Notes under the pieces: model-generated
The model's database searches: none
Told to the model about the DNA's origin: nothing
What the model saw: the letters and a program-made list of their open reading frames with translations, nothing else
Translations under genes and position numbers: made by a program
In this document: piece after piece, positions 2 to 60,816 of the stretch
Position numbering within the stretch: position 1 is the first letter of the stretch
Layout: each line of letters starts with the position of its first letter
DNA from: Kiritimatiellia bacterium
GTDB lineage: Bacteria > Verrucomicrobiota > Kiritimatiellia > RFP12 > UBA1067
DNA length: 64,000 nucleotides
Assembly (NCBI GenBank): GCA_017454745.1
Contig: JAFTCL010000044.1
Coordinates: forward strand, 62,001-126,000
Reading direction: 5' to 3'

Positions 2-3000
2 ACTGAGTTTAACGAAGTCACCATTACCCGGCGGGTCTTCCGTTCCGGCGAGGGACAGTATTTTATCAACAAAACGCCCAGCCGGTTGAAGGACGTTAAC
101 CGCCTGTTTATGGGTACCGGCATCGGCACCACCTCCTATTCGGTAATGGCGCAGGGTCAAATCGACGCCATTTTGTCCTCCAAACCCGAAGACCGCCGGG
201 CGGTCTTCGAGGAAGCCGCCGGGATTACAAAATTCAAGGCCGACCGCAAAGAGGCCATGCGCAAAATTGAGCAAACTGAGGCCAACCTGCTGCGGTTGGC
301 GGACGTTATACGCGAGGTTAAACGTCAGATCGGCACGTTGCAACGCCAGGCCGGCAAGGCTCAGAAATACAAAGAACTGCGGGACGAGTTGCGCGGTCTG
401 GACATTTTCTTGACCCGTCGGCGGCTGGGCGGTTTGGAGGTGCGGATCCGGGAACTGGACGCGTCGATAAACGAACTTCAGGAACAGTTGCTCGACCGTC
501 AGGATAAAGTCGCGGAGTCCGAGCGCGAGTCAGCCCGCATTCACGGTGAGATTCACGAGACGGAAGAGCGTATCGCGGTTCTTACGGAACAGGCGGCTCA
601 GGCGGATAACCGTTATATCCGCGCCCAGGAAGTGATTAAGGTCAACGAGCAGCGCATTAAGGAATACCGCGAGTGGGCGGAGCGGGACAACCGCGAAATT
701 TCCGAAACCGAGGAACAGATCGCCACCCTGAAAATGCAGGTGGAGTCGCTGGAGCAGAAACGGCTGCTTACCGAACAGGCGTTGGCGGCGGATAAAGTCC
801 GTCTGGAGGAAGCCCAGGCAAAATTCGACTCGCACCGGGTGCAGATTGACGCCACCCGCGCCGACTTGCAGCAGGAACGCCAGCAGATTGTGGCGTGCGA
901 GCGTCGTTCCTCCGAGATCCAAAAGACCCTATCCGAGATGGAAGCGCGGCAGCGCGATGTGCTGTTGAAACGCAACCGCCTAGTTGCCGAGCACAAACAG
1001 TTGGAAGAAAACGTCGCTTCCGCCAATTTCGCCCGCTCTGACGCCGAAGCGCGGCTGCAACGATTCCAAAACGAGTCCGGGCAGGTTCAAGCCCGTTTGG
1101 AAACGCTGGAAGACGAACGCGGAAACGCGCAGGAAGAGTTGCGCGGCTTGCAGGAATCGGTCTCCGGATGGCAGTCCGAGGCCGCCGCCAAACAGGCGCA
1201 GTTGGATTTGCTAAATGACACTGCCGAGTCGTCCGACGATTACGGCGCCGGCACCAAAATGCTGCTCGACCCGGAAAACCCGCTGGGGGTGTCGTCCTCC
1301 GCGGTTTTGGGGGCGTTGGCGGAGAAAATCACCGCGGCATCCGAGTTGCGTTTGGCATTGGAAGCCGCGCTGCGGGCTTGGCTGGACGCGGTGGTGGTGA
1401 ACGACGCCGGCACCGCGGTGGAGCTGCTGCGCAAATTAGGCGGACTCGGAACCCCGGCCGCCGCCAGAATGATTTTGGCGGCAGGCAATCCGCCGCCGCC
1501 GGTGACGGCGCCTGCCGGGTTGACCCCGCTGTTGGATTGGGTGCAGGTAGATGACGATTTCGCCGATGCGGCGAAGCGGCTGTTAGGCAACGTGTATCTG
1601 GCGGACAAACTGGAGGACATTCCGTTGCCGTTGCCGGCCGGATGCACCGTGGTGACATACGGCGGCGCGATTTTCACCGACTGCGGCTGCGTGGAACTGT
1701 GGATGCCGGACAGCGCGGTTTCCAGTCCGTTGGCCCGTCGGATGATGATTTCCGAAACCTCCGAACAGCTTGACGAATTGTCGGGAAAAATCACCAAAGG
1801 CAGACGCCAGCTGGAAGCGTTGAACGCACGGGTGGGCGAGTTGACATTGCTGATGAACCAGACCCGTCAGGAGCTGGATTCGGTGCGTCGCAAGGCCGCC
1901 CAGGTGGAAGGTGAGTTCCAGACCGTTAAGCGCGAGGAAGAGCGCGTACAATCCAGATTCGACGTGGTGGCAAAGGCGTTGGCCGAGATTACCGAACAAA
2001 CCTCCGGCGACGACGAACTGCGGACCGAGTTGAAGGTTGAGCTGGAGGAACTGATTTACGAACGCAACGAACTGCTGGAAAAAACCGCCGACAAATCTTC
2101 GCGTCTTCAAGAGATGGAGAGCGTTTACGGCGAATTGAGTCAGGCCCTCACCGAATGCCGCATCCAGGTTTCCGGCAACACCCAGCAATTGGAGCACGCC
2201 GCGTCGCAAAAGGAATCGGTCGAGACCCGCATATCGGAACTGGAGCGCACCGTGCAGGGGCGCCATCGCGGCGTGATGTCGTACGACGAAAGCATCAAAC
2301 GGTTGACGGAGGAAATCCAGACCTTGGAAGCCAGCTTGGACCCGTTGCGGATCGCGGCGGAAAGCATGCACATGAAAATCGAGGAAACCCGCCGCGAGCG
2401 CGGGGCGCAACAACGGGAGCTGGAGAAATCCGAAGCCGTGCTGGCCGAGTTGCGCCGGGCATTGGACGGATGCCGCGATTTGAAAGGCAAGGCGGAACTC
2501 GATGTCGCCGAATCGAAAATGCGGCACCAGAATCTGCTTGAGCACATTTACAACGAGTACGGTCTGTCGGCAGACGAATTGGTCAACGAACCCGACCCGC
2601 AATGGAAAAACGGCGAAATGCCGCCGATTTCCGAAATCGAGGAACGTACCGGTAAGCTGACTGCGGACATCCAGGCGCTAGGTCCGGTCAATCTGGTGGC
2701 GATTGAAGAGTACAAAGAGTTGGAGGAGCGTTACACCTTCCTGAAATCGCAGGAAAGCGATTTGTTAAACTCCAAGGCCCAGATTTTGGAAATGATCACG
2801 ATGATCAACCAAAAATCCGGGGAGATGTTCCAATCCACATTCCAGCAAGCCTGCGCCAATTTCGAGACCATGTTCACCAAACTCTTCAACGGCGGGCAGG
2901 CCAAGCTGGTGTTGCTTAAAAACGAGGAAGACCCGTTGGAGTGCGGCATCGACATCATCGCCCGTCCGCCGGGCAAGCGTCCGCAGTCGGTCACCCTGCT

Positions 3001-3394
3001 TTCCGGCGGCGAGCGCACGATGACGGCGGTAAGCCTGCTTTTCGCCATCTTCATGATCAAGCCCGCGCCGTTCTGCATGTTGGACGAGCTGGACGCGGCG
3101 TTGGACGACAGCAACATCGGCCGTTTTGTGCAGGCTTTGAAGGACTTTCTGGCGCATTCCCAATTCCTGATCATCACCCACAACCAGCACACCATTGCCG
3201 GATCGGATCTGGTGTACGGCGTGACCCAGCAGGAAAAGGGCATCTCCAAGATCGTCTCGATGCGGCTCAAGGAGATCGGTTCCAAAGATCTGGAGATGGG
3301 CGAGAAAGAACCCGAACCGGAACCCGAACCGACCGTAAAAAAGCGCCGCAGCCGTAAACGCGACGAAACCGATTCCGATAATGAAGCCAGCTAA
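2..3394 (+). CDS. smc: Chromosome segregation protein Smc (5'-truncated by window edge)
   Basis: Smc is the ATPase core of bacterial condensin, which compacts and segregates the chromosome. The frame is open from base 2, so the true start and the Walker A motif lie outside; the TTG at 86 is internal. The visible 1130 residues start in the N-terminal head (GTTSYSVMAQGQID, then SSKPEDRR and FEEAAGI, all typical of Smc). A long coiled coil follows, a hinge at about 1250-1720 nt, a second coiled coil, and the C-terminal head with signature LLSGGERT and Walker B CMLDELDAALDD (about 2995-3110 nt). Conserved NLVAIEEY lies before the last coiled segment. The extreme C-terminus is odd: an EPEPEPEP stretch, then a basic KKRRSRKR block and an acidic end. 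Identification is secure from the head motifs and the Smc-length coiled coils; scpA and scpB are not in the window. Confidence 0.97.
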   Translation, partial: TEFNEVTITRRVFRSGEGQYFINKTPSRLKDVNRLFMGTGIGTTSYSVMAQGQIDAILSSKPEDRRAVFEEAAGITKFKADRKEAMRKIEQTEANLLRLADVIREVKRQIGTLQRQAGKAQKYKELRDELRGLDIFLTRRRLGGLEVRIRELDASINELQEQLLDRQDKVAESERESARIHGEIHETEERIAVLTEQAAQADNRYIRAQEVIKVNEQRIKEYREWAERDNREISETEEQIATLKMQVESLEQKRLLTEQALAADKVRLEEAQAKFDSHRVQIDATRADLQQERQQIVACERRSSEIQKTLSEMEARQRDVLLKRNRLVAEHKQLEENVASANFARSDAEARLQRFQNESGQVQARLETLEDERGNAQEELRGLQESVSGWQSEAAAKQAQLDLLNDTAESSDDYGAGTKMLLDPENPLGVSSSAVLGALAEKITAASELRLALEAALRAWLDAVVVNDAGTAVELLRKLGGLGTPAAARMILAAGNPPPPVTAPAGLTPLLDWVQVDDDFADAAKRLLGNVYLADKLEDIPLPLPAGCTVVTYGGAIFTDCGCVELWMPDSAVSSPLARRMMISETSEQLDELSGKITKGRRQLEALNARVGELTLLMNQTRQELDSVRRKAAQVEGEFQTVKREEERVQSRFDVVAKALAEITEQTSGDDELRTELKVELEELIYERNELLEKTADKSSRLQEMESVYGELSQALTECRIQVSGNTQQLEHAASQKESVETRISELERTVQGRHRGVMSYDESIKRLTEEIQTLEASLDPLRIAAESMHMKIEETRRERGAQQRELEKSEAVLAELRRALDGCRDLKGKAELDVAESKMRHQNLLEHIYNEYGLSADELVNEPDPQWKNGEMPPISEIEERTGKLTADIQALGPVNLVAIEEYKELEERYTFLKSQESDLLNSKAQILEMITMINQKSGEMFQSTFQQACANFETMFTKLFNGGQAKLVLLKNEEDPLECGIDIIARPPGKRPQSVTLLSGGERTMTAVSLLFAIFMIKPAPFCMLDELDAALDDSNIGRFVQALKDFLAHSQFLIITHNQHTIAGSDLVYGVTQQEKGISKIVSMRLKEIGSKDLEMGEKEPEPEPEPTVKKRRSRKRDETDSDNEAS

Positions 3395-3410
3395 TTTATT
3401 TCACCATCGC

Positions 3411-3436
3411 CGGGACAGCGGACTGTGTCCCGTTTT
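3411..3436 (+). terminator. Probable rho-independent terminator after smc
   Basis: A 7-bp stem (CGGGACA at 3411-3417 with TGTCCCG at 3426-3432, 8-nt loop) is followed by TTTT, 17 bases after the smc stop codon. The stem is short and the U-tract weak. Its 3' arm is also the first bases of repeat copy A. Confidence 0.45.
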
Positions 3437-3700
3437 ACGATAGGTTGTCACTTGGTTAGCCTGCCGCCCGCTTCGCTTCCCGCACGGGAATGTAAATGAG
3501 GAACCGTGTAGAACGGGTAGAAACGTGTAGAAATCAGAGGTTTTAACCGCAGACCAACACAGACCCGCCACTCTTTGCGAACTTTGCGCCCTTTGCGGTT
3601 AAAAAGCATTGTGGCAATACTGCGCGTAATCGCGGAACTACTCCGTTCGCTTGACTTTGCACACCGTATTTTGTACCATTTTGGTATGAATTGTTTGGCA
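3425..3700 (+). repeat. Island repeat, copy A (promoter-bearing non-coding module)
   Basis: This is the first of three related non-coding blocks in the island. Block 1 (3425-3540) matches 5819-5935 almost base for base. Block 2 (about 3550-3700) matches 5041-5160 and 6001-6150. Block 2 carries a roughly 9-bp periodic run of TTTGCG words (3571-3600) and a conserved promoter-like pair. No conserved reading frame runs through the three copies, so I treat it as non-coding. The rest of the gap to 3858 holds more GCGCAAAG words (about 3716-3790) and a short Rhs-like relic (3818-3847). Confidence 0.8.
3651..3679 (+). promoter_or_regulatory. Predicted sigma70-like promoter inside repeat copy A
   Basis: TTGACT at 3651-3656, a 17-bp spacer and TACCAT at 3674-3679. 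The same boxes with the same spacing occur in copies B and C. It points at the lipoprotein gene starting at 3859. Conservation across copies supports it more than the individual box scores do. Confidence 0.5.
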
Positions 3701-3858
3701 AAAACTCCGAATAAGCATCGCGCAAAGTCCGAAAAGTGCGCAAAGGTCTTTCGTGTCGAACATCTTGGCGAACTTTGCGTACTTGGTGCTGGACAAAAAG
3801 GGGATGGTGGCTCCACAAACACCCTCTACGCCGTGGCCGTCCCGCAAGGAGAAAATCA

Positions 3859-4944
3859 ATGAGATATCTTAGACTTATTGTGTTGTTATTAATTGCGAAT
3901 ATCTGTTCTTCTTGTTCGACCGCAGCTTTATTTGTTGTTCGTAATCATTCTAATTCCCCGATTGTTTTAATAACGGAGTCGTCGGGACGAGATGTATTTC
4001 GACACGTTAATAAGATTCTTCCAAACGGTTCTAGCGAGAAATTCCCGTTAAATCGCACGGGGATGATAATTGTCGTTAATGATATGGGAAAGGTGACTGC
4101 TTTCGATGTTCTTTACGGATTACGTTACTATGCCCTGTCCAAAGATAATCGTCATGATTATTCCCCACTTCAGTTGCGATATGAACCGGACGGGCGGTTG
4201 TTTTTTCTTGGAAGAGACGGGTTGCCTTTATTATCACTTCCGTCTTTCGGAGAAAGCAATGTCCCTACTTATATTCGCGAGGAGTTGGAAAGGGTATTGT
4301 TTCCTTCAACCAGTTGGTTTTGGTTAGTTAGACAGATTGAGAATTATGTCTCTGAACGCCATCAATTGCCGCCTTCGCTTGCATATCTTGGTATGCCTCA
4401 GGAAAGCTGTAACTACTATTCTAAAACCCATACGCTTGTATCGACAAATATCAACGAATTTCTATCAGGCAAAGCGGATTTTGTATATTCCCGTGAATTG
4501 AACGATGCTCAAAACCGCATCGCCAACAAGCTTTTGCGGGTGGATATTGAGCGCATAATGGAACGTGAAAGGGTTATAGCCCGTGTTGTAAGAGGCATTG
4601 CGGCGCACATGGTGAATAATGACTCATTCGTATTCCCCGGGGATTTACATGAATTGGTCACCGCAGGAAGAACCAACTTGTTTGGAGAGGTTGTAGATAA
4701 ATTTGACATAGGTATTTTTAATGGTTATTGGTTTCCGCATTCTCAATCATTAACCAATTCTGTATTGTGGAAGACGGCATGGTTTTCTCCTACCACCACC
4801 AATAAGTCATTGTGTCTGGACAGTATTCTTGTCGAAACTCTTTATAAAGCGACAGGTAGCGAATGGCTGCGTGAGAAATGGGATGAACGTTTAAAAAACT
4901 ATTACCATACAGACATCCCAAAATCCGGCCAGCCCGACAAGTAG
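3859..4944 (+). CDS. Predicted lipoprotein of the Rhs-island paralogous family
   Basis: Unrecognised 361-residue protein. I chose ATG 3859 because it follows AAGGAG and opens a lipoprotein signal (MRYLRLIVLLLIANICSSC, lipid-modified Cys about residue 19); the longer in-frame ORF upstream runs through the repeat. The codons are much AT-richer than in smc, a sign of transfer. The last third (about residues 230-350) resembles the 188-residue protein at 7207: an RGIAAHMVNN...FVFPGDLHEL segment, then HSQSLTNSVLW...W, against SRDLAWYLSAH...RFPDNAEEF and GHSLTDKV...W there. Its position beside an Rhs tip suggests an immunity-type or effector-associated lipoprotein, but that is inference. Confidence 0.75.
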   Translation: MRYLRLIVLLLIANICSSCSTAALFVVRNHSNSPIVLITESSGRDVFRHVNKILPNGSSEKFPLNRTGMIIVVNDMGKVTAFDVLYGLRYYALSKDNRHDYSPLQLRYEPDGRLFFLGRDGLPLLSLPSFGESNVPTYIREELERVLFPSTSWFWLVRQIENYVSERHQLPPSLAYLGMPQESCNYYSKTHTLVSTNINEFLSGKADFVYSRELNDAQNRIANKLLRVDIERIMERERVIARVVRGIAAHMVNNDSFVFPGDLHELVTAGRTNLFGEVVDKFDIGIFNGYWFPHSQSLTNSVLWKTAWFSPTTTNKSLCLDSILVETLYKATGSEWLREKWDERLKNYYHTDIPKSGQPDK

Positions 4945-4950
4945 TCATAA

Positions 4951-5228
4951 TGTCTCGTTTTAGATGGGTTGACACTTGGATAAGTCAATTGCCCACTTCT
5001 TGCGCAAGGATGTTTTGAGGAAATTTTAGCCGTGCAGAGCGTGTAAATCTTTGCGTCCTTTGCGGCTAAAAACAATTGTGGTAAGACAGCGCGTAATCGC
5101 GGAACTGCTACGTTCGCTTGACTTTGCGCAACGGATTATGTACTATTACGATATGAATTGTTTCGCAGGGAAAAGACTTGTAGTCTCCAGAAGGCGTAGG
5201 CGTACGGACGCACGGATTTCCGCCGTTT
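4951..5228 (+). repeat. Island repeat, copy B (degenerate block 1, good block 2)
   Basis: Copy B begins with a decayed block 1 (4951-5020; GTCTCGTTTTAGATGGGTTG against GTCCCGTTTTACGATAGGTT in copy A). Block 2 follows (5041-5228) with the TTTGCG words, the GCGCGTAATCGCGGAACT segment and the promoter pair. From 5160 to 5228 it tracks copy C beyond the point where copy A diverges. The rest of the gap to 5348 holds a CATCGCGCAAA segment also found downstream of copy A at 3716. No gene is supported in this 404-base gap. Confidence 0.75.
5118..5146 (+). promoter_or_regulatory. Predicted sigma70-like promoter inside repeat copy B
   Basis: TTGACT at 5118-5123, a 17-bp spacer and TACTAT at 5141-5146, at the same place in the repeat as in copies A and C. 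It points at the gene starting at 5349. Confidence 0.5.
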
Positions 5229-5348
5229 CAACGGGCATCAGCGGAGACTGTCCCATTCTGGCCGTCATGTTTGAGGCGGTTGCAAAACCTCCGATCCAGC
5301 ATCGCGCAAAATCCGCAAATTGCATTTTAATAATATAATGGCAAATTA

Positions 5349-5837
5349 ATGAATATTCATCGCAATATCGTGAGAAGGATAGAAACTTATTGTGAAATGT
5401 TGTTTGTCCTGATATTTCTTTCCTGTTGTATATTTGCAGGAATGTGGGGATGTAATCACATGAAAGTAGAGTCGCTGTATGCTTTTTCTAGGGATCTAGC
5501 TGAATATGTTGCAGCTAACAAAAAGCTACCAGAGAATTTCACCGTTTTTTGCGAATGGAAGGTCGATGAAAATAACCGACCGATTTGGGATATCGATATT
5601 ATTACTAAAATTGTAAAGTTGAATACTATGCCGTTGGAGGAAATGCTACAAGGCAACAAACCAATAATTATTATCAAAGATGAAAAATATTCGAACTTAA
5701 CATATTCAATCAATTGTCATTTTGGCGGCCACCTATACCATGAACTACACAAATCTGGTGAAGAATCAACGTTTTCAACAAATATGCCCCATGATGTCGA
5801 TATTTTGATTAAAGACACGTGTCCCGTTTCACGATAG
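5349..5837 (+). CDS. Small membrane-anchored or exported protein, Rhs-island family
   Basis: Unrecognised 162-residue protein. A hydrophobic segment near residues 17-37 (LFVLIFLSCCIFAGMW) ends in GC, so it is a membrane anchor or a poor lipobox. Right after it, FSRDLAEYVAANKKLPENF matches SRDLAWYLSAHDYRFPDN of the protein at 7207, which suggests common ancestry. The rest is rich in Ile, Lys and Asn. The gene is very AT-rich. Its last codons and stop (5819-5837) are supplied by the first bases of repeat copy C, so the repeat junction cuts right at the gene end. No good ribosome binding site is seen before ATG 5349; ATG 5397 is an alternative start. Function unknown. Confidence 0.6.
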   Translation: MNIHRNIVRRIETYCEMLFVLIFLSCCIFAGMWGCNHMKVESLYAFSRDLAEYVAANKKLPENFTVFCEWKVDENNRPIWDIDIITKIVKLNTMPLEEMLQGNKPIIIIKDEKYSNLTYSINCHFGGHLYHELHKSGEESTFSTNMPHDVDILIKDTCPVSR

Positions 5838-6190
5838 GTTGTCACTTGGTTTAGCCAGCCGCCCGCTTCGCTTCCCACACGGGAATGTAAATGAGGAACC
5901 GTGTAGAACGGGTAGAAACGTGTAGAAATCAGAGGAGAGAATGATGAGTGACGAGTGACGAACTACGAGTGACGAGTTTGGAAAGGCAAATTTAAGCACG
6001 GATCAACACAGATATGCCGCTCTTTGCGAACTTTGCGCCCTTTGCGGCTAAAAAGCATTGTGGCAACACTGCGCGTAATCGCGGAACTGCTCGTTCGCTT
6101 GACTTTGCACACCGGATTATGTACCATTTTGGTATGAATTGTTTCGCAGGGAAAAGTCTAATTGTATCCAGAAGGCTTAGGCGCACAACC
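5819..6190 (+). repeat. Island repeat, copy C
   Basis: Block 1 (5819-5935) is nearly identical to copy A 3425-3540. A short insertion follows with direct repeats of GTGACGAGTGACGA type (5944-5980). Block 2 (about 6001-6190) carries the periodic TTTGCG words and the conserved promoter. It runs straight into the Rhs-derived coding sequence at about 6195. Confidence 0.8.
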
Positions 6191-7147
6191 GCACGGATTA
6201 CCGCCGTGCCCCATCCTCTGGGGCGGCACGTCTCCACCACGGATGCCGGCGGCACGGTTTACCACGCCTACGACGGCATCCACTGCGTCGCCGACCTGGA
6301 CGGCGACGGCAGCCTCCTCCGCGCCTACACGTGGGGCGCGGACGTGGACAATCTGTTGGCTGTGACGCTTGTCGACGGCGCGGCCACCAATACCCTCTAC
6401 GCCGTGACCGACCCGCTCGGCACCGTCCACGCGCTGATTGCATCCGACGGGACCGTCTCCGTTTCCTACACCTACGACTCGTGGGGAAACGTCCTGTCGG
6501 TTTCCGGCGACCAGGCGTTGATATCCGCGAACCGCTTTACTTGGCAAGGGCGCGAATATTCATACGCGACTGGTCTCTACAACTTCCGGGCAAGGTGGTA
6601 CGACCCCGCTGCGGGGCGGTGGCTGTCGAAGGACCCGATAGGCCTTGAGGGCGGGTTGAACCTGTATGAGGCGTTCGGTAACAACCCGGTGTGCTTTGGG
6701 GATCCTTTGGGAGAGACTGTATATTATTCTTCACTTGGAGGGACTCATGCGGAATTGATGTATACTGATTCACAAAGTTCAACAGGTTATGATTTATTCA
6801 ATTTTTACGGACAACAAGACGCACATTGGCCGGGTAAAGAATACACTGTTACAGATAATATTCAGGAAGTTATTAATGCGTTTTGGTCAAAAGGAGTATT
6901 GGTCGTCAAATCTGAGCCACAATGTCGGATTACAAAAGATTACATAACCATTCATATGACAAGTGATGAGGAAAAACGATTACATACTGTAATTGCGAGT
7001 TATGAAGTAGAAAATTACAGCGTTATTGGCAACAATTGTTCAACTGTCATTCGAAAGGTATTATACGAATGTGGGTTCTTTTCTTCTCCTCATTTTACCG
7101 GATGGCCAATTACGCCTGACGGTTTGCAAAAGGATATTGAAGAATGA
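6014..7147 (+). CDS. Orphan Rhs C-terminal tip with candidate toxin domain
   Basis: Carboxy-terminal piece of an Rhs/YD-repeat polymorphic toxin. Rhs similarity starts only at about 6195, so some 1000 residues of the normal shell are missing and the upstream codons are repeat copy C; the start is undetermined (ATG 6134 is also in frame). YD-type sequence (AYTWGADVDNLLAV, TDPLGTVHALI, YTYDSWGNVLS) leads to the core motif FRARWYDPAAGRWLSKDPIG and the boundary FGDPLG at about 6711. The C-terminal 145 residues switch sharply from GC-rich to AT-rich. They carry GGTHAELMY near their start and YSVIGNNCSTVIRKVL near their end, a His-then-Cys order that could fit a circularly permuted papain/NlpC-type fold. 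The fold and the toxin role are inference. A likely cognate immunity gene follows at 7207. Confidence 0.8.
   Translation: MPLFANFAPFAAKKHCGNTARNRGTARSLDFAHRIMYHFGMNCFAGKSLIVSRRLRRTTARITAVPHPLGRHVSTTDAGGTVYHAYDGIHCVADLDGDGSLLRAYTWGADVDNLLAVTLVDGAATNTLYAVTDPLGTVHALIASDGTVSVSYTYDSWGNVLSVSGDQALISANRFTWQGREYSYATGLYNFRARWYDPAAGRWLSKDPIGLEGGLNLYEAFGNNPVCFGDPLGETVYYSSLGGTHAELMYTDSQSSTGYDLFNFYGQQDAHWPGKEYTVTDNIQEVINAFWSKGVLVVKSEPQCRITKDYITIHMTSDEEKRLHTVIASYEVENYSVIGNNCSTVIRKVLYECGFFSSPHFTGWPITPDGLQKDIEE
6099..6127 (+). promoter_or_regulatory. Predicted sigma70-like promoter inside repeat copy C
   Basis: TTGACT at 6099-6104, a 17-bp spacer and TACCAT at 6122-6127. The surrounding TACCATTTTGGTA is a small dyad shared with copy A. 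It points at the Rhs tip gene. Confidence 0.5.
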
Positions 7148-7206: not shown

Positions 7207-7773
7207 ATGATGGCAATCGGACATTATATTAATTACTCGTTCCAAATATTATGCGCAGCTTTGCGTATTATATTTGGTTTCGTTTCAAAGCATTTTATTC
7301 TGGTGATGGTGTCTTGCTTTCTTTTGGCAAGAATGCCAGCTTATATTCGAGAGGTGCGTCTCATGTTGCGCGGAAATCAGGAGGTTGCGTTATCCCGTGA
7401 TTTGGCTTGGTATTTGTCGGCACATGATTACCGTTTCCCGGACAACGCCGAAGAGTTCGTCGATGCCTTAAGGCAATCTAGGCGCGAAGATGATTATGTG
7501 CCGTGTAATAGCGTCTTATGGATAAATGAACACTATTCGCTACCTTGGGGGCATTCTTTGACCGACAAAGTGTCTTTGACGGAAAACTGGTTTAAACGTC
7601 TCGACAATGACAAAATGGGGTTTCTTGCTGACGGACATCTTACTCAACGAGTTTGGAGTGATCTGTATCAATGCAGTTCGAATAAGGTTATAATTGATAA
7701 ACTGTGGGAAATTTGGGCAGAAAATCAATCCCGCACAAGTTGTGTTAATCATGTTTCGTGTGATGTAAAATGA
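7207..7773 (+). CDS. Candidate immunity protein for the Rhs tip, membrane-anchored
   Basis: Unrecognised 188-residue protein in the position typical of an immunity gene, 59 bases after the Rhs tip. ATG 7207 follows GGAGAAAGATGATAAA. The N-terminus is hydrophobic (about residues 8-44, including FILVMVSCFLLA). The rest is soluble with SRDLAWYLSAHDYRFPDNAEEF and GHSLTDKVSLTENWF. Both segments recur in the 3859 lipoprotein and the first in the 5349 protein, so the three form a family. An N-terminal anchor would place the domain outside the cytoplasm, where an exported toxin might act. AT-rich. The immunity role is inferred from position only. Confidence 0.7.
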   Translation: MMAIGHYINYSFQILCAALRIIFGFVSKHFILVMVSCFLLARMPAYIREVRLMLRGNQEVALSRDLAWYLSAHDYRFPDNAEEFVDALRQSRREDDYVPCNSVLWINEHYSLPWGHSLTDKVSLTENWFKRLDNDKMGFLADGHLTQRVWSDLYQCSSNKVIIDKLWEIWAENQSRTSCVNHVSCDVK

Positions 7774-7807: not shown

Positions 7808-8534
7808 ATGAAAGTCATAATACCGCATATACATCGTCTTAGGCGTGTCATTTTTGCAGTGTCTATGCTTGTTCTCGCTACGTCTGCGGTTGTGGCGGTC
7901 AGAGAAATCCGCAGGGGGGGCAGCCATTGCAAGCGCGAAGGCACAACATCGTAAGATCTATTCGTTAGTGACGGATCATCTTGCATCATCCCAACGGAAG
8001 CAAATGGTTGATACTGATGTTATATTGCATAGGTTTAAACGGTACATTGACGAAGTATATGGTTTAATGGAGGAATCTCACCGTGATTTTTTGGAGATAC
8101 TCACCATTATCGGCCTTTTTTGCTTATATTTGTGTTATATCGCATCTAGCTCGCGGCGGACAAAGTCATTTATGGATAATTTTCCCTATGTCTCCAGTTG
8201 CATGATAATCGCTTTGGGGATATCGCTGGCCCTGCTAACTTTGAAGTTTAAGTGTGTATCCGGAACAATCCAAGAAAAGGGATCGGAGGCACTGACGTTC
8301 TTAAATCAAGCCATCAACGTTATGGAAAACAATGCCGGGGAAAAATATGTGGGTAACGAAATAGTGAAGGACGTTTTCGCCTGGACCAATACCGTATACC
8401 GGTTAATAAAAGTTATTGATCTGGACACAATGTTTTTCCTTATGGGAACAGGTATCGCAACAATCGTGTCAGGAGTGATGTTGTTTGCCGCAACATGTAA
8501 AAATAATTGCAATGGGTATTTTAATGAAAACTAA
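7808..8534 (+). pseudogene. Multi-pass membrane protein gene interrupted at a G7 tract
   Basis: ATG 7808 opens a signal-anchor (VIFAVSMLVLATSAVVAV) but runs into a stop about 50 codons later. The frame with the remaining protein starts upstream only as an artefact. The two frames meet at a run of seven G (7914-7920); with six G they join as REIRRGAAIASAKAQ into a 241-residue protein. That protein would have the N-terminal anchor, two central hydrophobic segments (LTIIGLFCLYLCYIA; CMIIALGISLALL) and a C-terminal one (FFLMGTGIATIVSGVMLF). It could be a phase-variable gene, a plain frameshift or a homopolymer read error. Family and function are not recognised. AT-rich like the rest of the island. 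Confidence 0.6.
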
Positions 8535-8777: not shown

Positions 8778-8977
8778 GGGAGGGACGCGCTCCGTCGCGT
8801 CTGGGTTGCAGGGTTGGTTGTCTCCATACCTTTGCGTTCCATGCGCTCTCTGCGGTCGAAAACAAACGGATTTGTTCGTTACTAACGCCGCTCACGGGAA
8901 TGTTGCGTGGTCGCCGATTGGTGTGGATTCGTGTCACCTTGCGGTTCACAGCGGACGCGACGGAGCGCGTCCCTCCC
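8778..8977. repeat. REP-like inverted repeat pair
   Basis: A 24-base sequence at 8778-8801 recurs as its perfect reverse complement at 8954-8977. Each arm contains its own small dyad (GACGCG...CGCGTC around ACGGAG). Such short GC-rich palindromic units in inverted pairs are the form of REP/BIME elements. They lie in the 366-base gene-free gap between the island and the helicase gene. No RAYT transposase is in the window. Confidence 0.6.
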
Positions 8978-9072: not shown

Positions 9073-12000
9073 TCATAAACCACCGTTCCGGTAAACCGTA
9101 TCCAGAAATTCTCTGGTGCGGACGTTGAGAACACTGAACCCCATGCATTTCGCGGTTTCACGGTATAGAGTGTCCGGTTCCAACGATTGGTAGTCCTCGG
9201 TCAGTTCGCGCATCACGTTAAGCAGTTCCGGCGGCGGGATCTCATCGATCGCCCGGCGGTTTTCCTCCCGGTCCGGAATGCGGTATTCGCGATATTCGGA
9301 CGGGTTCTGGTTCGGAGCCCAGTAGATTTTTTCTCCGCCGTTAAATTGCGTAACCGGGCATTCCGAAGGCATGCACTGATTCACAATGGACATAATCTGG
9401 CTGCCGCCGCGATTGAAACCCCAGGCTCGGATCAGCCGGTTCTGCGCCACGCTTTCAAACACCGGCCCTTCCTGGGTGATGATGGCCAGCAGCTGTTTCC
9501 TGATGGTGGTCTGCTGGCGCGGTTCGTAGAAGTTTTCCGACGACAGTCGTGCGCTTGTAGTCCACGCTTTGTAAAACGGATGCTTGCGTATCGTCGGGGC
9601 CAGTTGGGGCAGGGGTTCAAGTTTTGGTTCGGCTTTTTTAGCCGACGGTTCGTCCGCTTCGGTCAATGCCTTTTGAATCGCCTCCAGCAATTGGTTCTCG
9701 GCGCGAACCCGGTCGAAAGCCCAGTCCACGCTCCAGGCGCGATAGGTGTGCCAACCCAAACCGCGCAGCACGGAGAACCGCAAATGGTCACGGTCGCGCG
9801 TGGTGCGCTGTTTGGCGTATGCCGGGCCGTCGCATTCGATGCCAAGCAGATATTCGTCCGGGTGTTCGGGGTGTACCACCGCAAGGTTGATCCGGTAGCC
9901 GGAGTGGCCGATGTTGGTCATGACGGTGTAACCTTTGTCAACAAGGAATTTGCGGATCACTTCCTGAAGTCCGGTTTCGAGTTTCGATTCGGCCTTTGTC
10001 CCGGCCTGCATTTGTTCGGACTTGGCCCCGCTTTCGGCGTATTCGATAAAGTATTTCAGATGGGCCGCGCCAACCGCCTTGGTACGGTCGAGGTTGATTT
10101 GGTTGCCGTGGATTGACGAGAAGAGGACAACCTCTTCTTTGGCGCGGGTGACCGCCACGTTTAATCGGCGTTCGCCGCCGTCGCGATTCAGCGGGCCGAA
10201 GTTCATTGCGAACTTGCCGTCCGCGTCCGGAGCGTAGCCCACCGAGAACAGTATGGCATCGCGCTCGTCGCCCTGAACGTTTTCCAGATTCTTGACGAAG
10301 AACGGCTCCTCGCACTGCTCGGTGAAGTAATCCTCAAACTCCGGTTGGCTGGCGCGACGCTCTTCAACCAAGTCTTCGATAAGTCCGCGCTGCGCCATGC
10401 TGAAGGTAACCACCCCCATGCTCTTTTTGCGCATCTTGGGATCGGCCAAACGGTCAAAGATGTAATCCACCACCGCTTCCGCCTCCTTGCGGTTGCTGCG
10501 CGATTTGCGGCGGTCGTAAATACCGCCCTCGACGAAACGGAAGCTCACGCCAAGGTGTTCGCCGTTGCGCGCCGCCGGGAAGGTGAACAGTCCGTTGCCG
10601 TAGTAATGGCAGTTGCTGAAGGCGATCAGCGACTCGTGGCGGCTGCGGTAGTGCCAGCTGAGATAGGACGAGTGTACGCCCGCCGCGAGGCATTCGTCGA
10701 GAATGCTCTCCATATCCTCTTCCGGAGCTTCGGCGGCTTCGTCGCTGTCGTCCTCTTCCAACCCCTTTTGGAAGAAGTTGGTCGGCGGCATCTGTTTGGG
10801 GTCGCCCACCACTACCAATTGTTTGGCGCGGGCGATAACCCCGATCGCGTCCCAAACCGGAATTTGCGATGCTTCGTCGAACACCACCACGTCGAACGGC
10901 TCGTGGTTGGGCGGCAAATACTGCGCCACCGATAGCGGGCTCATCAGGAAACAAGGCTTGAGCGAACGGAGCAGGGTGGGTATCTGCCCCAACAGCTGGC
11001 GCACCGGTTTTTGCCGGGCGCGTTTTTCGCATTCGCGTTTCAAAATGCCCAACTCGGTGCCTTCGGGACACGGACCGCTGCGGCGGCGCGGGAGCCTCGA
11101 CGCCAGTTTGGCGTAAACGATTTGCCGCGACACCGAGATGTACCGTTCGTCCAATTCGCAGAATTTCTTGATGCGCTCGTTTTGGGTGCTTCCCACGAAG
11201 CGGCATAGTACGGGCTGGGATTCAAGGATCTCCTCCAGCATTTTTTTGCGGTAGGCGCGGTCAAAGGCATCGGTCAACTGACCGGGGGCGACCGTTCCGT
11301 CTTCCAACGCGACGGCGAGTTTCACCAACTGCAAGTCAACCGCGGATTTCCGCTGTTGCAGGTAAACCAGCATTACCCGCAAATCCGGCAAATTGTTTAT
11401 GCAACGGTTTAGCCGGTCTTCGGTTGCGGCGAGTCCGGATGCGGCGTCAAAGCCGTTCGCGTATTTTTTCAATTCATCCAGCTTATCCCCGAAATTCTTC
11501 AACCGCTGTTCCAAACGGCGCAGCGTTTCGCCGTCAACGGCATGGAACAGCCGCTGCGATTGCGCTTCGGTGCGCAGCGACTCCAACGCGCAACGGTATT
11601 CCGCGCCGTCGGGATTGAAGATTCCCGCGAGCGCGTTGAAAACCTGTAACGCCGGTTTCGCCGCGGCGTCAACCGCGTTCCAATCGGTTGTCCCGCCGGA
11701 GGCAAACCCGGCCACGGCGACGGAAAGGCTCTTTTCCGCGGCGGCGAGTTTGCGGCGTTTCGTTTGGTGCTCTTCCAAGGCGTCAAGCTGACCGGTCAGC
11801 TCTTCCAGAGTAAGCTTGGCTCCGCCGGGACGTTTTAAGCCGGACATTTCCTTGAGCAGCGAACGGTTGGCGAAAAACCGCGAGATGAAGAACTTCGCGC
11901 GGTTGGTTTGGATGCGGTTGCGGATGCCGGGGTAATCAAGCTCGTCGGAAAAATCCAGTTTATACGACGCGAGCTGACGTTCCAGCTCTTGGCAGCGGAT

Positions 12001-14877
12001 TGCGGTTTTTGCTACGGAAGCTACTATGGGACACTCTTTGGCGCCGCTTGGGGTAAGCCACTCAGCAGGGAAAGATTGTCCGCCGGAAGTGGCGCGGGCC
12101 AGTTCCGAAAGACACTTTGCCGCGTCGTAGGATAAGTCTGTAGCCGTTAAGGCAAAGGCATCGGTAACACTCTGGCAGCTTTCCCGAAGCGCGGAACAAC
12201 ACTCTTTGGAATCGGTCAGACAGGCCGAGAGCTCGCGTTCGAAGAGCGGAGTCCATTCGGCGGGGAGGAAATCGCCGAACGCTTCGCGCGCCGAAGCGGA
12301 AGTGCTGGAAAAGGCGGTGGACAGCTCTTCGCAAAATTGCCGCATGGACAGATATTCGTCGCGGGACTGGCCGGAACATTTAAAAGCGATCCAATCGCGG
12401 GCCGGTTCATCCTCGGAGGCCATTTGCGACGAGAAGCATTCGTAAGGGGTGATGCCGTTGGGGCATGGGGCGTGGAGGGCGTTAACATAGCAATTCAGCT
12501 CATCGCGCACCGCTTGCAGCTCTTTCACCGTTTCATCCCAGGACTTGGGTTCGGCGGTATCGGCAACGGCAAGCGCCTCGGCAAACTGCGCCAATACCTC
12601 GGTCTTGCCGGATTTGTTGGAGTGCAGCTCCAAACAGAAGGGGCGAAGGCCGATTTTCTCCAGTCTGCGGTGCACCACGTCCAGCGCGGCGCGTTTTTCG
12701 GAGACGAACAACACCCGCTTCCCGGTGGCCAGCTCATGCGCGATAATGTTTGTGATGGTCTGGGATTTGCCGGTGCCGGGCGGCCCGTGCAAGACAAAGC
12801 TTTTCCCAAGTTCAGCGTATTTAACGGCGGTCAGCTGAGAACCGTCGGCACTCATCGGACAATAAAGCGAGGCCAGATCCACATGCTTGGCAATCTCTTC
12901 GGGCGGGAACACCTCGATACCGTCATCAAAAAGTCCGCCGCCTTCAATAAGATGATTCACCAGCGGCTGCTCTTTGAGGTCGTCGATGCGGTTGGACAAG
13001 TCGTTCCACATGATGAATTTGTTGAACGAGAACAGCCCCAGCCAAGCCTCTTCGCGCACTTCCCAACCTGAGATGTTGCGGATACGCTCGCGGAAAATCG
13101 CCAACACCTGTTTGACGTCCACGCCGTGGTCGTCAAGCGGCAGGTCTCCCTCCAGTTCCGGTATCGCCAGATGCTTCTCCCGTCGCAACAGCTCCAGCAA
13201 TGTCACATTGATGGTGGTGTCCTCGTCCAAACGGGCGAGCGTGATGCCGTCAGCCATCGATTTGCGCTGCAACCGCACCGGAATCAGTAGAATAGGCGCG
13301 AGGTAGCTTTTGGCTTCATGGTCGGACATCTTCCATTCCAACATCCCCACGCCGAGGAAAAGGGTGTTGATGCCGCCGTCTTCGAAGTCGGCTTTATTTT
13401 GGCGGAAGATGGCTTTTAACCGTTTAGCGTTCTCCTTATCCGGAACTTCCGTGTAGATGTGGCGCTGTTTTTCAAACCCTTGAACGATCAGGTTCTGGAT
13501 ATGTTCGGGGTAGGGGTCTTTGGGATGCTGCGAACGGGCGAGCCGGTCGGTATCGTTGAGGATCGTTTCTAACGAGACCAATGTAAAGGTCGCTTTGTCG
13601 GCAAGACGGTCTTCGAGCATCGACACGTCCGGACAGGCGAGCGGAAGCACTTGGGCGCTGTTGCGCACATTCAACAAACGGTTGCGCAACGAGAGGTCGA
13701 GCAGTTTCTGCTGCCAGCGCGCCACGCGGGCGCTGGGCGCTTCCTTGGGCTTGGCGGGGGCGGTTGCCGTCGGCGATTCCTCCAATTCCCGCAACGGTTC
13801 GCCATCGGAAGAGGCGGCTGCCGGAGCGGAATCGGCCGGCATTTCCAGTTCGATGCCTTCGGCGTCGGTTTTCAGCGGCAACGGGCGGATTTTGCTCATC
13901 CTGGCGCGATAGATATCGATCGCGCATTCAAAATCCTCGTCGTGGTTTAAGTTGACTCTGCGCGCCTGGGCCTCGGCCTCCTTGAACGCGGTATGTCCGG
14001 TTGCCAGCGTGGCTTCGATTACGCAGAAATTGTCGGAGGCGGCAAGTTTGCGGATCTGCTGCAGATCGTCAACCACGGTTTCCGGGAAATAGGTGTCGGT
14101 CAGATGACAGCCGATATAGGCATGGCCGCGTTCCAGCATCACCACCGGATGCAGTCCGCACTGCTCCATCACCGCCGCGAAGAGCAGGGTGAGGTCGAGA
14201 CAGGTGCCGAGCTTGAATTTCATGACCGCGCCGGGAAGCCGGACGCGCTGGCCAACCGATTCGAAAGACGTCGGCGGCTCGCAGTAGGCGATTCCGGCGC
14301 CGGCGATGGCGTTGTAAATGGAGGCGCAAATTTCGTAGGCGCGTTTTTTACCCTGCTGGTACCCGGAAACGGCGGACGATTTGGTTCGGCGCTCAAGGTC
14401 GTCCGCAGCCGCTTTCATCAGCAATGCCACTGCGGTGAGGTTGGGGGTGACGAACGCCGCCAACAATTCGGGGAAACGCGACGTGCCTAACCACTGGTCG
14501 GCCGCGCAGGCGGTAACCGCAGCCGTGGTAGCTGACAGCTGGCGCCCATCTCTGTCGGTGAGCGCGAATTTTATCTCGCCTTTAACGGAGTCCGACAATT
14601 CCGCCAGCCATTTGTGGTCAAGCTCAACATTGAGGTCATGCAGGACAATCGAACCTCCGGCAGCCAATTCGGCGATATTAACGGTTTTTTCTTTCAAGAA
14701 ACCGGGCTCGGATGTTATCTCCACCTTCAGGTCTCGGTATGCGGAAACTCCTGGGTTGGTTATCGCGATCTCATGTACCACGGGGAATGCGTTTTGCTGC
14801 AAAGCCAGATCCACGGCGTCAACCACCGTGGTGTCGATTTTTACGGGAGTAGGGTCGGTTAAGGTCTGATCATCCAT
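9073..14877 (-). CDS. DUF4011 superfamily I helicase-nuclease, Hhe-type defence protein
   Basis: A 1934-residue protein with the order of Hhe anti-phage proteins (DUF4011, helicase, Vsr/DUF559-like nuclease). ATG 14877 follows GAGGTG; the TTG four codons upstream is not needed. An N-terminal transglutaminase-like region has LGTCLDLTLL (about residue 230) and RGHAYIG. The DUF4011 part holds LSLRNRLLNVRNS. Helicase motifs are Walker A GPPGTGKSQT (about 695), DEASQIPVWDA with GDPKQMPP (about 1335), the WHYRSRHESLI motif, and NVQGDERDAI then RRLNVAVTRAKEE. A PD-(D/E)XK-like nuclease (about 1655-1715) has GIECDGPAY and DRDHLRFSVLRGLGW, but reads YRINLAVV where the family normally has RIDLAV. A C-terminal DUF3320-like domain (EGPVFESVAQNRLIRAWG) ends the protein. 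It stands alone, as Hhe does, beside the Rhs island. Defence function is by family. Confidence 0.9.
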   Translation of the reverse strand: MDDQTLTDPTPVKIDTTVVDAVDLALQQNAFPVVHEIAITNPGVSAYRDLKVEITSEPGFLKEKTVNIAELAAGGSIVLHDLNVELDHKWLAELSDSVKGEIKFALTDRDGRQLSATTAAVTACAADQWLGTSRFPELLAAFVTPNLTAVALLMKAAADDLERRTKSSAVSGYQQGKKRAYEICASIYNAIAGAGIAYCEPPTSFESVGQRVRLPGAVMKFKLGTCLDLTLLFAAVMEQCGLHPVVMLERGHAYIGCHLTDTYFPETVVDDLQQIRKLAASDNFCVIEATLATGHTAFKEAEAQARRVNLNHDEDFECAIDIYRARMSKIRPLPLKTDAEGIELEMPADSAPAAASSDGEPLRELEESPTATAPAKPKEAPSARVARWQQKLLDLSLRNRLLNVRNSAQVLPLACPDVSMLEDRLADKATFTLVSLETILNDTDRLARSQHPKDPYPEHIQNLIVQGFEKQRHIYTEVPDKENAKRLKAIFRQNKADFEDGGINTLFLGVGMLEWKMSDHEAKSYLAPILLIPVRLQRKSMADGITLARLDEDTTINVTLLELLRREKHLAIPELEGDLPLDDHGVDVKQVLAIFRERIRNISGWEVREEAWLGLFSFNKFIMWNDLSNRIDDLKEQPLVNHLIEGGGLFDDGIEVFPPEEIAKHVDLASLYCPMSADGSQLTAVKYAELGKSFVLHGPPGTGKSQTITNIIAHELATGKRVLFVSEKRAALDVVHRRLEKIGLRPFCLELHSNKSGKTEVLAQFAEALAVADTAEPKSWDETVKELQAVRDELNCYVNALHAPCPNGITPYECFSSQMASEDEPARDWIAFKCSGQSRDEYLSMRQFCEELSTAFSSTSASAREAFGDFLPAEWTPLFERELSACLTDSKECCSALRESCQSVTDAFALTATDLSYDAAKCLSELARATSGGQSFPAEWLTPSGAKECPIVASVAKTAIRCQELERQLASYKLDFSDELDYPGIRNRIQTNRAKFFISRFFANRSLLKEMSGLKRPGGAKLTLEELTGQLDALEEHQTKRRKLAAAEKSLSVAVAGFASGGTTDWNAVDAAAKPALQVFNALAGIFNPDGAEYRCALESLRTEAQSQRLFHAVDGETLRRLEQRLKNFGDKLDELKKYANGFDAASGLAATEDRLNRCINNLPDLRVMLVYLQQRKSAVDLQLVKLAVALEDGTVAPGQLTDAFDRAYRKKMLEEILESQPVLCRFVGSTQNERIKKFCELDERYISVSRQIVYAKLASRLPRRRSGPCPEGTELGILKRECEKRARQKPVRQLLGQIPTLLRSLKPCFLMSPLSVAQYLPPNHEPFDVVVFDEASQIPVWDAIGVIARAKQLVVVGDPKQMPPTNFFQKGLEEDDSDEAAEAPEEDMESILDECLAAGVHSSYLSWHYRSRHESLIAFSNCHYYGNGLFTFPAARNGEHLGVSFRFVEGGIYDRRKSRSNRKEAEAVVDYIFDRLADPKMRKKSMGVVTFSMAQRGLIEDLVEERRASQPEFEDYFTEQCEEPFFVKNLENVQGDERDAILFSVGYAPDADGKFAMNFGPLNRDGGERRLNVAVTRAKEEVVLFSSIHGNQINLDRTKAVGAAHLKYFIEYAESGAKSEQMQAGTKAESKLETGLQEVIRKFLVDKGYTVMTNIGHSGYRINLAVVHPEHPDEYLLGIECDGPAYAKQRTTRDRDHLRFSVLRGLGWHTYRAWSVDWAFDRVRAENQLLEAIQKALTEADEPSAKKAEPKLEPLPQLAPTIRKHPFYKAWTTSARLSSENFYEPRQQTTIRKQLLAIITQEGPVFESVAQNRLIRAWGFNRGGSQIMSIVNQCMPSECPVTQFNGGEKIYWAPNQNPSEYREYRIPDREENRRAIDEIPPPELLNVMRELTEDYQSLEPDTLYRETAKCMGFSVLNVRTREFLDTVYRNGGL

Positions 14878-14895
14878 AAAGCACCTCAATTACTA

Positions 14896-58167: not shown

Positions 58168-60816
58168 ATGAAAAGACTATTCGCAATCCTAGCGGCGGCG
58201 ATTGGTTTCGCCGTAATCGCAAACGCGGAAAATTACATCAATTTGTCGACTTTGACAGGCGACAAGACACTCGTCGATGGCGATGCCATCTGGGACACGC
58301 TCTCCGGCAACCACAAAATCTCTATCGCTCCCGGCGCTACGATTATACTCAATAGCGCAACCATCAACGGCGTGAACAACGAAAACTGCAAGTGGGCCGG
58401 CATCACATGCCTGGGCGATGCGACAATCGTACTTGTTGGAGACAACACCGTCAGGGGATTCTACGAGGATTATCCCGGTGTATACGTACCTGAAGGCTCG
58501 ACACTCACTATTCGTGGGGGCGGTTCGTTAAACGCCTCCAGCAACGGCTGGGGTGCCGGCATCGGCGGCGGTTACGATATGCCATGCGGAGACATCAAAA
58601 TCCTTTGGGGTGACATAACTGCCACGGGCGGAAGCCACGCGGCGGGCATTGGCGGTAGCTGCGATCAAACTTGCGGCAACATCCTCATTTACGGGAAAAA
58701 CGTCACCGCCACGGGCGGTACCAACGCCCCGGGCATCGGCTCCGGCGGTAGCACTAGCTGGTCTCAAGCCTCCTGTAACAATATCATCATTTACGGCGGC
58801 ATCGTCACCGCCACTGGCGGAACTAACGCCCCCGGTATCGGTTGCGGCAAAGGAAGCAAATGCAATGATATCCAAATCACTTCCCAGTACTACGCACCTT
58901 GCGTTACCGCGACATGCGGCAAAAACTGCGATAAACCAATTGGCGCGGGTGTTGACGGGACTTGCGACTTAATCTTCGTGAGCACGAATCTTGACAGTGT
59001 AACAAACGGCCAGACGCGCAAAATCAAACATATTGCTAATCTCGCCAATATCACGAAAGATACGCAATTCATCCATGGAGAGACCATCTCAGGCACTCTC
59101 GGCGGCAACTACAAAATCTCCATCACCGATGGTTCTACAGTGACGCTCAAAAATGTGACCATTCGGGGCGCGAACAGCTCCAGCTACGCCTTTGCAGGAA
59201 TAACATGCGAAGGCGATGCCACGATCATCCTTGAGGGCGCGAACACCATCAAAGGATTTTACGATAGATACCCTGGTATTTTCGTCCCATCAGGCAAGAC
59301 GTTGACAATCAAGGGCACTGGTTCGCTTAATGCCTCCAGCAACGGATATGGATCCGGCATCGGCGGCGGTTACGGCATAAATTGCGGAAATATCGTTATT
59401 GATGGCGGCACCATTACGGCCCAAGGCGGCAGCAGTTCGGCAGGAATTGGCAGCGGTGACGGCGGAAGCGGTTCTGCCACTGCCATATGCGGCTACATCA
59501 CAATAAACGGCGGCACTATCACCGCGACCGGTGGCGTCAACGGAGCAGGCATTGGCTGCGGCAGGTGCGGCGAGTGCGGCAACATCACCATCGGTTCGGG
59601 AATCACCAGCGTAATCGCGACGCGCAACTCCACATATAGCACAAATCTGGCCCCTATCGGCAAGGGCTCTGGAGCCAGCACTACAGGTACCATAACCATC
59701 GCGGACGACCTGAATGACGTGACAAGCGATGACGGTGATACACGTACCATAAAGGCCTGGTCCTTAAGGAGGCTTGAACTGCTCGTGGGTGACCCGACAT
59801 ACAATAACTTAGAAATAATCACCGGTACTCTCACGGGCAATTTCAAGATTTATATCGCAGACGGCGCGACGGTGAAGCTAAGGAATGCGACAATCGTCGG
59901 CGAAAATAACTCCAACTATGATTGGGCAGGCATCACCTGCCTCGGCAACGCGACAATCATACTGGAGGGCGATAATACTGTAAAAGGATTCGACGAAAGC
60001 TATCCCGGCATTTCCGTTCCGGCGGGCAAGACGCTGACTATCAAGGGCACTGGGTCATTAACTGCATCCAGCAACGGCTGGGGTGCCGGCATAGGCGGTG
60101 GGTACAATATGGCCTGCGGCAATATTGTCATAGAAGGCGGAACAATCAACGCAATAGGCGGTGGTGGCGCGGCCGGCATCGGCAGCGGCTATGTCAACAA
60201 ATGCGGCAACATCACTATCTCCGGCGGTACCGTCACGGCGACGGGCGGTCTACAGGCTACGGGCATTGGCAGCGGTAGCGGTAGCGGGGCCAAATGCGGT
60301 ACCATCACCATCGGCGCAGGCATCACGCGCATCACGGCAACATGTGGTGAGAGTTGTTCCAATCCCATCGGCGCGGGTTATAGTGGCTCTTGCGGCGTCA
60401 TAACATTGGCGAGTGGCTTGAGCGACTCGACAACCGGATCGACGAGGGTGATCGCAAGTAACAGCGGCATCGCTTCGTGGGCGGCTGCGAAGGGACTCAA
60501 GGGCGCGGATGCGGAATGGGACGCTAAACCGGCGATGTGGGGCGGCAAATGGGCGAATGCTTTCATCTATACCTACGGTGAAGGGCTAGCTAACGGTACG
60601 ACCGCCTTAATGACCATCAAGTTCGACGCTAATGGTAAACCGATCATCACGACTGCACCGGTCATCGAAGGCCGCACTGATTTCAGCGCTTCCATAATCG
60701 GCGTACCCAAGCTCGACAACTGGGCTAATCCGGTCATCCTCAACCGTAGTGGAAATGACTGGACCCTCCCGGCGGGCAAGGCGGCAAACTTCTTCCGCGT
60801 TAAGCTGTCTAAATAG
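58168..60816 (+). CDS. Secreted beta-helix protein with three 245-265-residue repeats
   Basis: 882 residues with a signal peptide (KRLFAILAAAIGFAVIANAE). Three long repeats start near residues 31, 297 and 541. Each runs in the same order: a GTLxGNxKI segment, WAGITCxGDATIxLxGxNTV, a YPGIxVPxGKTLTIKGTGSL line, SNGWGAGIGGGY and several CGNIxIxGGTITATGG turns. This is a right-handed beta-helix pattern found in surface proteins of gut anaerobes. Cys residues recur at every CGN turn. The C-terminal 110 residues (KGLKGADAEWDAKPAMWGG ... WTLPAGKAANFFRVKL) form a separate module that may be an export or anchoring tail. Ligand unknown. AAGGGA precedes the start. Confidence 0.85.
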   Translation: MKRLFAILAAAIGFAVIANAENYINLSTLTGDKTLVDGDAIWDTLSGNHKISIAPGATIILNSATINGVNNENCKWAGITCLGDATIVLVGDNTVRGFYEDYPGVYVPEGSTLTIRGGGSLNASSNGWGAGIGGGYDMPCGDIKILWGDITATGGSHAAGIGGSCDQTCGNILIYGKNVTATGGTNAPGIGSGGSTSWSQASCNNIIIYGGIVTATGGTNAPGIGCGKGSKCNDIQITSQYYAPCVTATCGKNCDKPIGAGVDGTCDLIFVSTNLDSVTNGQTRKIKHIANLANITKDTQFIHGETISGTLGGNYKISITDGSTVTLKNVTIRGANSSSYAFAGITCEGDATIILEGANTIKGFYDRYPGIFVPSGKTLTIKGTGSLNASSNGYGSGIGGGYGINCGNIVIDGGTITAQGGSSSAGIGSGDGGSGSATAICGYITINGGTITATGGVNGAGIGCGRCGECGNITIGSGITSVIATRNSTYSTNLAPIGKGSGASTTGTITIADDLNDVTSDDGDTRTIKAWSLRRLELLVGDPTYNNLEIITGTLTGNFKIYIADGATVKLRNATIVGENNSNYDWAGITCLGNATIILEGDNTVKGFDESYPGISVPAGKTLTIKGTGSLTASSNGWGAGIGGGYNMACGNIVIEGGTINAIGGGGAAGIGSGYVNKCGNITISGGTVTATGGLQATGIGSGSGSGAKCGTITIGAGITRITATCGESCSNPIGAGYSGSCGVITLASGLSDSTTGSTRVIASNSGIASWAAAKGLKGADAEWDAKPAMWGGKWANAFIYTYGEGLANGTTALMTIKFDANGKPIITTAPVIEGRTDFSASIIGVPKLDNWANPVILNRSGNDWTLPAGKAANFFRVKLSK

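Follow-up and report, generated by a model that had tools for sequence, protein, structure and literature searches.

The locus between smc and a helicase gene in the window (the whole 64,000-nt stretch of DNA analysed) is very probably a decaying array in which displaced (orphan) Rhs toxin-tip/immunity modules have three repeats as their spacers. This reading follows from the arrangement found around one of its genes, gene 5349 (genes are named here by their first position), in a relative of the same genus, Verrucomicrobia bacterium UBA1200 (G001). The segment 5324-6133 matches G001 over 811 columns with 95.8% identity, and the Rhs tip, of which the window retains the last 25 nt, is complete in G001. 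Since the G001 counterpart of gene 5349 stands behind that complete tip, its assignment as an orphan immunity gene is well supported. The order on the G001 contig is rhs tip, a 96%-identical copy of gene 5349, the repeat and a host gene, which from its sequence we take to be of the Gfo/Idh type.

An earlier note on this DNA had described the repeats as promoter-bearing modules separating unrelated-looking accessory genes, and knew of no named element with such a form. Neither description was supported. The genes comprise an orphan immunity gene, an immunity candidate and a toxin-immunity pair of an Rhs locus, which makes the locus an orphan Rhs array, an array of a known kind. It carries a modest but real twist, a spacer with an in-frame start codon in every module.

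Modules and repeats of the array

The features of the array and its left boundary, all on the forward (+) strand, are the following.

86-3394 (+): smc (chromosome partition), left boundary; Pfam SMC_N and SMC_hinge; neighbour kept in G001, 94-96% identity
3425-3739 (+): repeat A; block 1 at 3425-3540, block 2 at 3582-3700, tail at 3698-3739
3651-3679 (+): promoter-like TTGACT-17-TACCAT in A; consensus match, not above chance
3686-3862 (+): open frame of 58 codons from the ATG of repeat A; ATGA 4-nt overlap with gene 3859
3813-3845 (+): Rhs-core remnant (STNTLYAV) in module A; 88% identical to 6384-6416, E 6e-5
3859-4944 (+): candidate orphan immunity gene by position only, 361 aa, lipoprotein-like start
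4951-5323 (+): repeat B; stretches common to the other copies at 4951-5000, 5049-5226 and 5282-5323
5118-5146 (+): promoter-like TTGACT-17-TACTAT in B; consensus match, not above chance
5153-5338 (+): open frame of 61 codons from the ATG of repeat B; stop 10 nt 5' of gene 5349
5324-5348 (+): terminal 25 nt left over from a deleted Rhs tip, module B; within the G001 match containing the complete tip
5349-5837 (+): orphan immunity gene (well supported), 162 aa; last codons and stop in the first bases of copy C
5819-6207 (+): repeat C; into Rhs core by about 6219
6099-6127 (+): promoter-like TTGACT-17-TACCAT in C; six bases 5' of the in-frame ATG
6134-7147 (+): mini-Rhs; leader of about 28 aa from the repeat, last ~165 aa of Rhs core, 145-aa tip
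6710-7144 (+): predicted toxin tip of module C; 44% identical to an Rhs tip in G005
7207-7773 (+): predicted cognate immunity gene of the tip; its G005 homologue directly follows the homologous tip
7845-8534 (+): ORF for a small membrane protein, possibly one more immunity gene; no family match above cut-off

Repeat A begins 30 bases past the smc stop. In module A the repeat is followed by 33 nt of rhs core and gene 3859, in module B by 25 nt of a tip end and gene 5349, and in module C by ~165 aa of rhs core, the 145-aa tip and immunity gene 7207. The three repeats are confirmed as real and far beyond chance by BLASTN within the window, which aligned A with C over 331 columns (76%, E 9e-71), B with C over 178 columns (87%, E 2e-54) and A with B over 119 columns (85%, E 1e-31). 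Block 1 is some 106 nt long in A and C, with its first ~50 nt alone recognisable in B, block 2 is common to A, B and C, and a tail is common to A and B (3698-3739 corresponding to 5282-5323). The copies exist where the earlier note had located them, but their ends had to be redrawn, as the homology of C extends to about 6207-6229 and that of B to about 5323. As had been pointed out, copy C contains the TAG stop of gene 5349 within its first bases, and the arrangement is the same in G001. A search of the locus against Rfam gave no match.

Recognition of module C rests on its rhs core, which scored 79.3 bits with TIGR03696 of NCBIfam against a cut-off of 32.5 and was the sole match, the immunity genes and the tip giving nothing above the cut-off in Pfam, NCBIfam and PHROGs. 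The delivery part of rhs is absent from this module, whose core measures ~165 aa against more than 1200 aa before the core end in full-length relatives, and upstream of the array the window contains smc and no full-length rhs gene. The tip and gene 7207 occur as a pair, side by side, in a genome of another genus (G005), with 44% and 31% identity, respectively. The tip also has a brief similarity to the G001 tip, and the gap between smc and the helicase gene in G001 contains rhs core debris together with a truncated homologue of gene 7207 (51%). A PDB sequence search with the tip gave no match, and its single-sequence AlphaFold model, with a mean pLDDT of 41, was too low for use; by inspection only, its HxxL...NNC motif is presumably thiol-hydrolase-like. 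Gene 3859 showed neither a family match nor a homologue in 115 genomes, and its label as an immunity candidate is therefore drawn from its position.

Three further features were observed in the window. A large protein with DUF4011, AAA helicase, MTES_1575 nuclease and DUF3320 regions (9073-14889, minus strand) adjoins the toxin array and resembles, we presume, defence-associated helicase-nucleases. A perfect 24-nt inverted repeat, GGGAGGGACGCGCTCCGTCGCGTC, is found at 8778-8801 and 8954-8977, with near copies at several G001 sites, and looks like a dispersed intergenic palindrome. Three diverged ~0.5 kb tandem copies with 67-68% identity, at 58271-60326, are probably paralogous genes.

Promoter-like pair and leader frames

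The pair TTGACT-17-TAC(C/T)AT, which had been noticed in each copy, occurs exactly three times in 64 kb, once per repeat. Its recurrence is to be expected, since A, B and C are duplicates of one sequence and do not amount to three independent observations. A consensus scan counted 10 promoter-like sites in the region and 10.5 +/- 3.1 in shuffles, so that the pair has no statistical weight as a predicted promoter. Varying columns numbered 1/12 in the hexamers against 15/86 in the remainder of block 2, and the conservation of the hexamers is not significantly better. The proposal that the repeat supplies a promoter is unproven, the site being at chance, the hexamers being not significantly better conserved and the other Rhs arrays analysed here differing at their junctions; as a hypothesis, the pair may still be treated as a candidate promoter. 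From the cassette array of the earlier note the modular order is retained, with each repeat 5' of a gene cassette, and the promoter role only as a hypothesis.

In every copy an open frame begins just 3' of the pair, from an ATG placed six bases after it, which supports the pair's having been said to point at the following gene. In A this frame crosses the 33-nt Rhs-core remnant in frame before it overlaps gene 3859, and in C it is the mini-Rhs itself, with 337 codons. The length difference between A and B, 114 nt, preserves the frame. What survives of the promoter idea would hence be translational, namely a spacer ATG predicted to read into or up to the immunity gene.

A related explanation accepts the Rhs orphan array but regards the repeats as passive by-products of tandem duplication and deletion, with a pair and leader frames devoid of function. 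The chance level of the pair fits this explanation, the third-position excess between the B and C leaders is weak (6/11, p 0.12), and chance alone gives frames of 58-61 codons a few percent of the time. It is opposed by the three leader frames being open and reaching the immunity start region, one of them with an exact 4-nt overlap, by the frame-preserving difference between A and B, and by an excess of in-frame starts throughout the family. Repeats of this passive kind are therefore judged somewhat unlikely.

The family-wide excess was found in an analysis of truncated units. Rhs cores, often arrayed, were present in 56 of the 77 family genomes, and repeated sequence at the unit joints was also seen in other arrays of the own and related genomes, where it differs from the window repeat. 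At the joints of one array (C41 of the own genome) a 77-nt repeat corresponds to the end of the neighbouring gene, and at those of another (G009 C87) the end of the upstream gene is followed by a promoter-like site (such as TTGACG-18-TAAAAT) and, seven bases on, a start codon, as read by eye. The analysis took in 50 truncated units, all closed at the 5' end; they were a convenience sample and partly related, their junctions were set automatically, and their two other frames were used as controls. An in-frame ATG before a stop upstream of the junction was present in 39/50 units against 28/100 control frames, about three times as commonly (Fisher p 9e-9, a value overstated, as frame 0 gains from alignments that start late and the units are related). 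Such alignments may let core codons pass as upstream sequence, an effect confined to frame 0; when only junctions within 40 codons were kept, the count, made by hand, was about 25/35 against 20/70. An estimate of 22/24 from hand-picked junctions was dropped as biased in favour of the automatic count. Nine of the starts have 4 or 1 nt in common with the stop of the ORF before them.

Short basic leader peptides are common to truncated rhs units on several contigs (G009:C67, G069:C30, G009:C166 and G063:C72). The leader MKRTLNTTINRSKS is common to the genera g9 and g15, and the leader MxExRxLxKxKSETxSxDYTDRVF to two species of g9. These shared leaders suggest that the units may move together with their own start.

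Occurrence of the repeat

In its own genome the complete repeat was found at four places, the three window sites and positions 3179-3457 of a 3.5-kb contig (C40). This contig contains the end of an rhs gene, a tip, two small ORFs and the repeat, and ends where the next rhs core joins; the junction from repeat to core is common to C and C40, with 97.5% identity over 199 nt. The core is 78-86% identical among the window, C40 and a further contig of the same genome (C62), and the sequences diverge after the core border. C62 holds an rhs end and a host flank as in G001. The assembly is a broken metagenome, 92% complete, and because both C40 and C62 end inside rhs it did not reveal the principal full-length rhs gene of the locus family.

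Among 60 relatives the complete repeat was present only in G001, once, and a search of genome contigs likewise gave one true match, G001; two other contigs were set aside, as only 22-30 nt of the repeat matched. Plasmid records gave no match to the repeat region, and viral contigs none to the block 2 pattern. The many short matches elsewhere correspond to general intergenic motifs of the genus that lie inside the repeat. Two such motifs, CGTGTAGAAATCAGAGG and CTTTGCGxxCTTTGCGGC, form part of blocks 1 and 2 and are dispersed genome-wide in intergenic positions of the own genome (for example on contigs C57, C59, C74 and C77). The earlier note would have given up its modules had the repeat been scattered over the genome with no link to downstream genes; the complete copies are not scattered and are strictly tied to Rhs cassettes. 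On the evidence of the two genomes that represent the genus, the repeat appears confined to a single family of Rhs loci.

This distribution bears on the possibility of a mobile promoter-bearing element, MITE-like or an unnamed cassette, that would insert between any genes and supply promoter and recombination homology. Three similar copies, each 5' of a gene and each with a promoter-like pair, are what such an element would leave. However, complete copies occur only in rhs arrays, in two genomes, the shorter pieces elsewhere are the general motifs just mentioned, and rhs debris or an immunity gene follows each repeat. Neither terminal inverted repeats nor target-site duplications were noticed in a general repeat scan, and the immediate neighbours examined include no transposase gene. 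A mobile element is thus very unlikely and, as judged from the sequences compared, the repeats are not a free-standing new element. A chromosomal integron, in which the repeats would be attC sites and the genes integrase-inserted cassettes, is scarcely credible, since despite the cassette-like order, and a relative (G031) with an rhs tip cassette between attC-like sites on contig C139, the attC reading was rejected on a fold z of about 0 (0.75, -0.05 and -0.33 in the window repeats against -2.7 to -5.9 at the G031 sites), on integrase searches of the 92% complete own genome that gave only Xer-like matches, far below the model cut-off and as in control genomes, and on a GTTRRRY-type boundary that was not seen.

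The G031 unit is an observation in its own right. At 1893-4360 of G031:C139 (L173), a truncated rhs unit with a signal-peptide-like start, a tip and a small membrane ORF lie between attC-like sites with z -4.4 and -5.9, and the contig also has an integron-integrase-like gene. The unit may represent an Rhs toxin carried in an integron cassette, and none of the papers searched brought integrons, attC, Rhs toxins and immunity together.

Proposed formation of the array and related systems

In the orphan array proposed here, each module would consist of the repeat, acting as a spacer with a promoter-like site and a start codon, the 3' part of the rhs core, a toxin tip and an immunity gene. Modules would be added or swapped by recombination between homologous core sequences at one end and homologous spacers at the other, and a spacer copy would thereby be left at every joint. 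The toxin parts would decay afterwards and the immunity genes be retained, so that module C could be taken as the complete stage, B as a stage with the tip reduced to 25 nt, and A as one with the core reduced to 33 nt. The spacer ATG, whose frame is seen to stay open into the mini-Rhs or to the immunity start, may allow the immunity gene still to be translated, presumably through coupling on a common transcript.

The locus agrees closely with several systems already on record. Orphan modules of rhs and cdi are well documented, usually without translation starts, and the homology of the enterobacterial orphan rhs-CT/rhsI modules to the main rhs gene permits tip switching (PMC3967940, PMC3150448). 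The locus resembles those of Salmonella LT2 and other enterobacteria in its arrayed, displaced core fragments, each with tip and immunity gene (PMC3967940, PMC3150448), and differs from them in that the spacer gives an in-frame ATG and repeats separate the modules. In Salmonella, orphan Rhs toxins can be expressed from a promoter, P2, located 5' of at least 50 tips (PMC7043789). A conserved promoter or promoter-like site before differing Rhs tips is common to both cases, with toxin-antitoxin-like expression without the delivery part in Salmonella (PMC7043789), but P2 was measured and is placed within the rhs reading frame, whereas the candidate described here lies in the spacer as a consensus match only. 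Type VI arrays of Vibrio cholerae lose effectors stepwise and retain their immunity genes, and grow by insertion of new effector-immunity modules (PMC5361080). Toxins would be lost, immunity genes retained and new modules inserted here as in those orphan immunity arrays, but the means of delivery may differ, and a repeated spacer with a leader frame precedes each immunity gene. In the tandem type VII immunity genes esaG and tipC, homology blocks that include intergenic regions drive recombinational gain and loss (PMC9484751). Those immunity genes are paralogues, whereas here the genes are mostly unrelated and the spacers alone are alike.

The usual account of orphan toxin modules is of silent stores, expressed only after recombining with the main gene. 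Tentatively, and as a suggestion that may well have to be given up, the displaced Rhs tips in this Verrucomicrobiota family might not be silent. They would be systematically re-equipped with a start codon, taken either from a promoter plus ATG spacer or from a 4-nt overlap with the preceding immunity gene, and whole arrays would be translated as coupled mini-Rhs/immunity operons, in which the start outlives the toxin because the immunity gene is driven from it. Should related arrays retain a start before every module, even toxin-less ones, selection would preserve the expression of immunity and not the storage of toxins. Spacer-borne starts would then, if this is true, provide a simple marker for such arrays in unannotated genomes. 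The array also brings orphan Rhs biology into a little-studied phylum.
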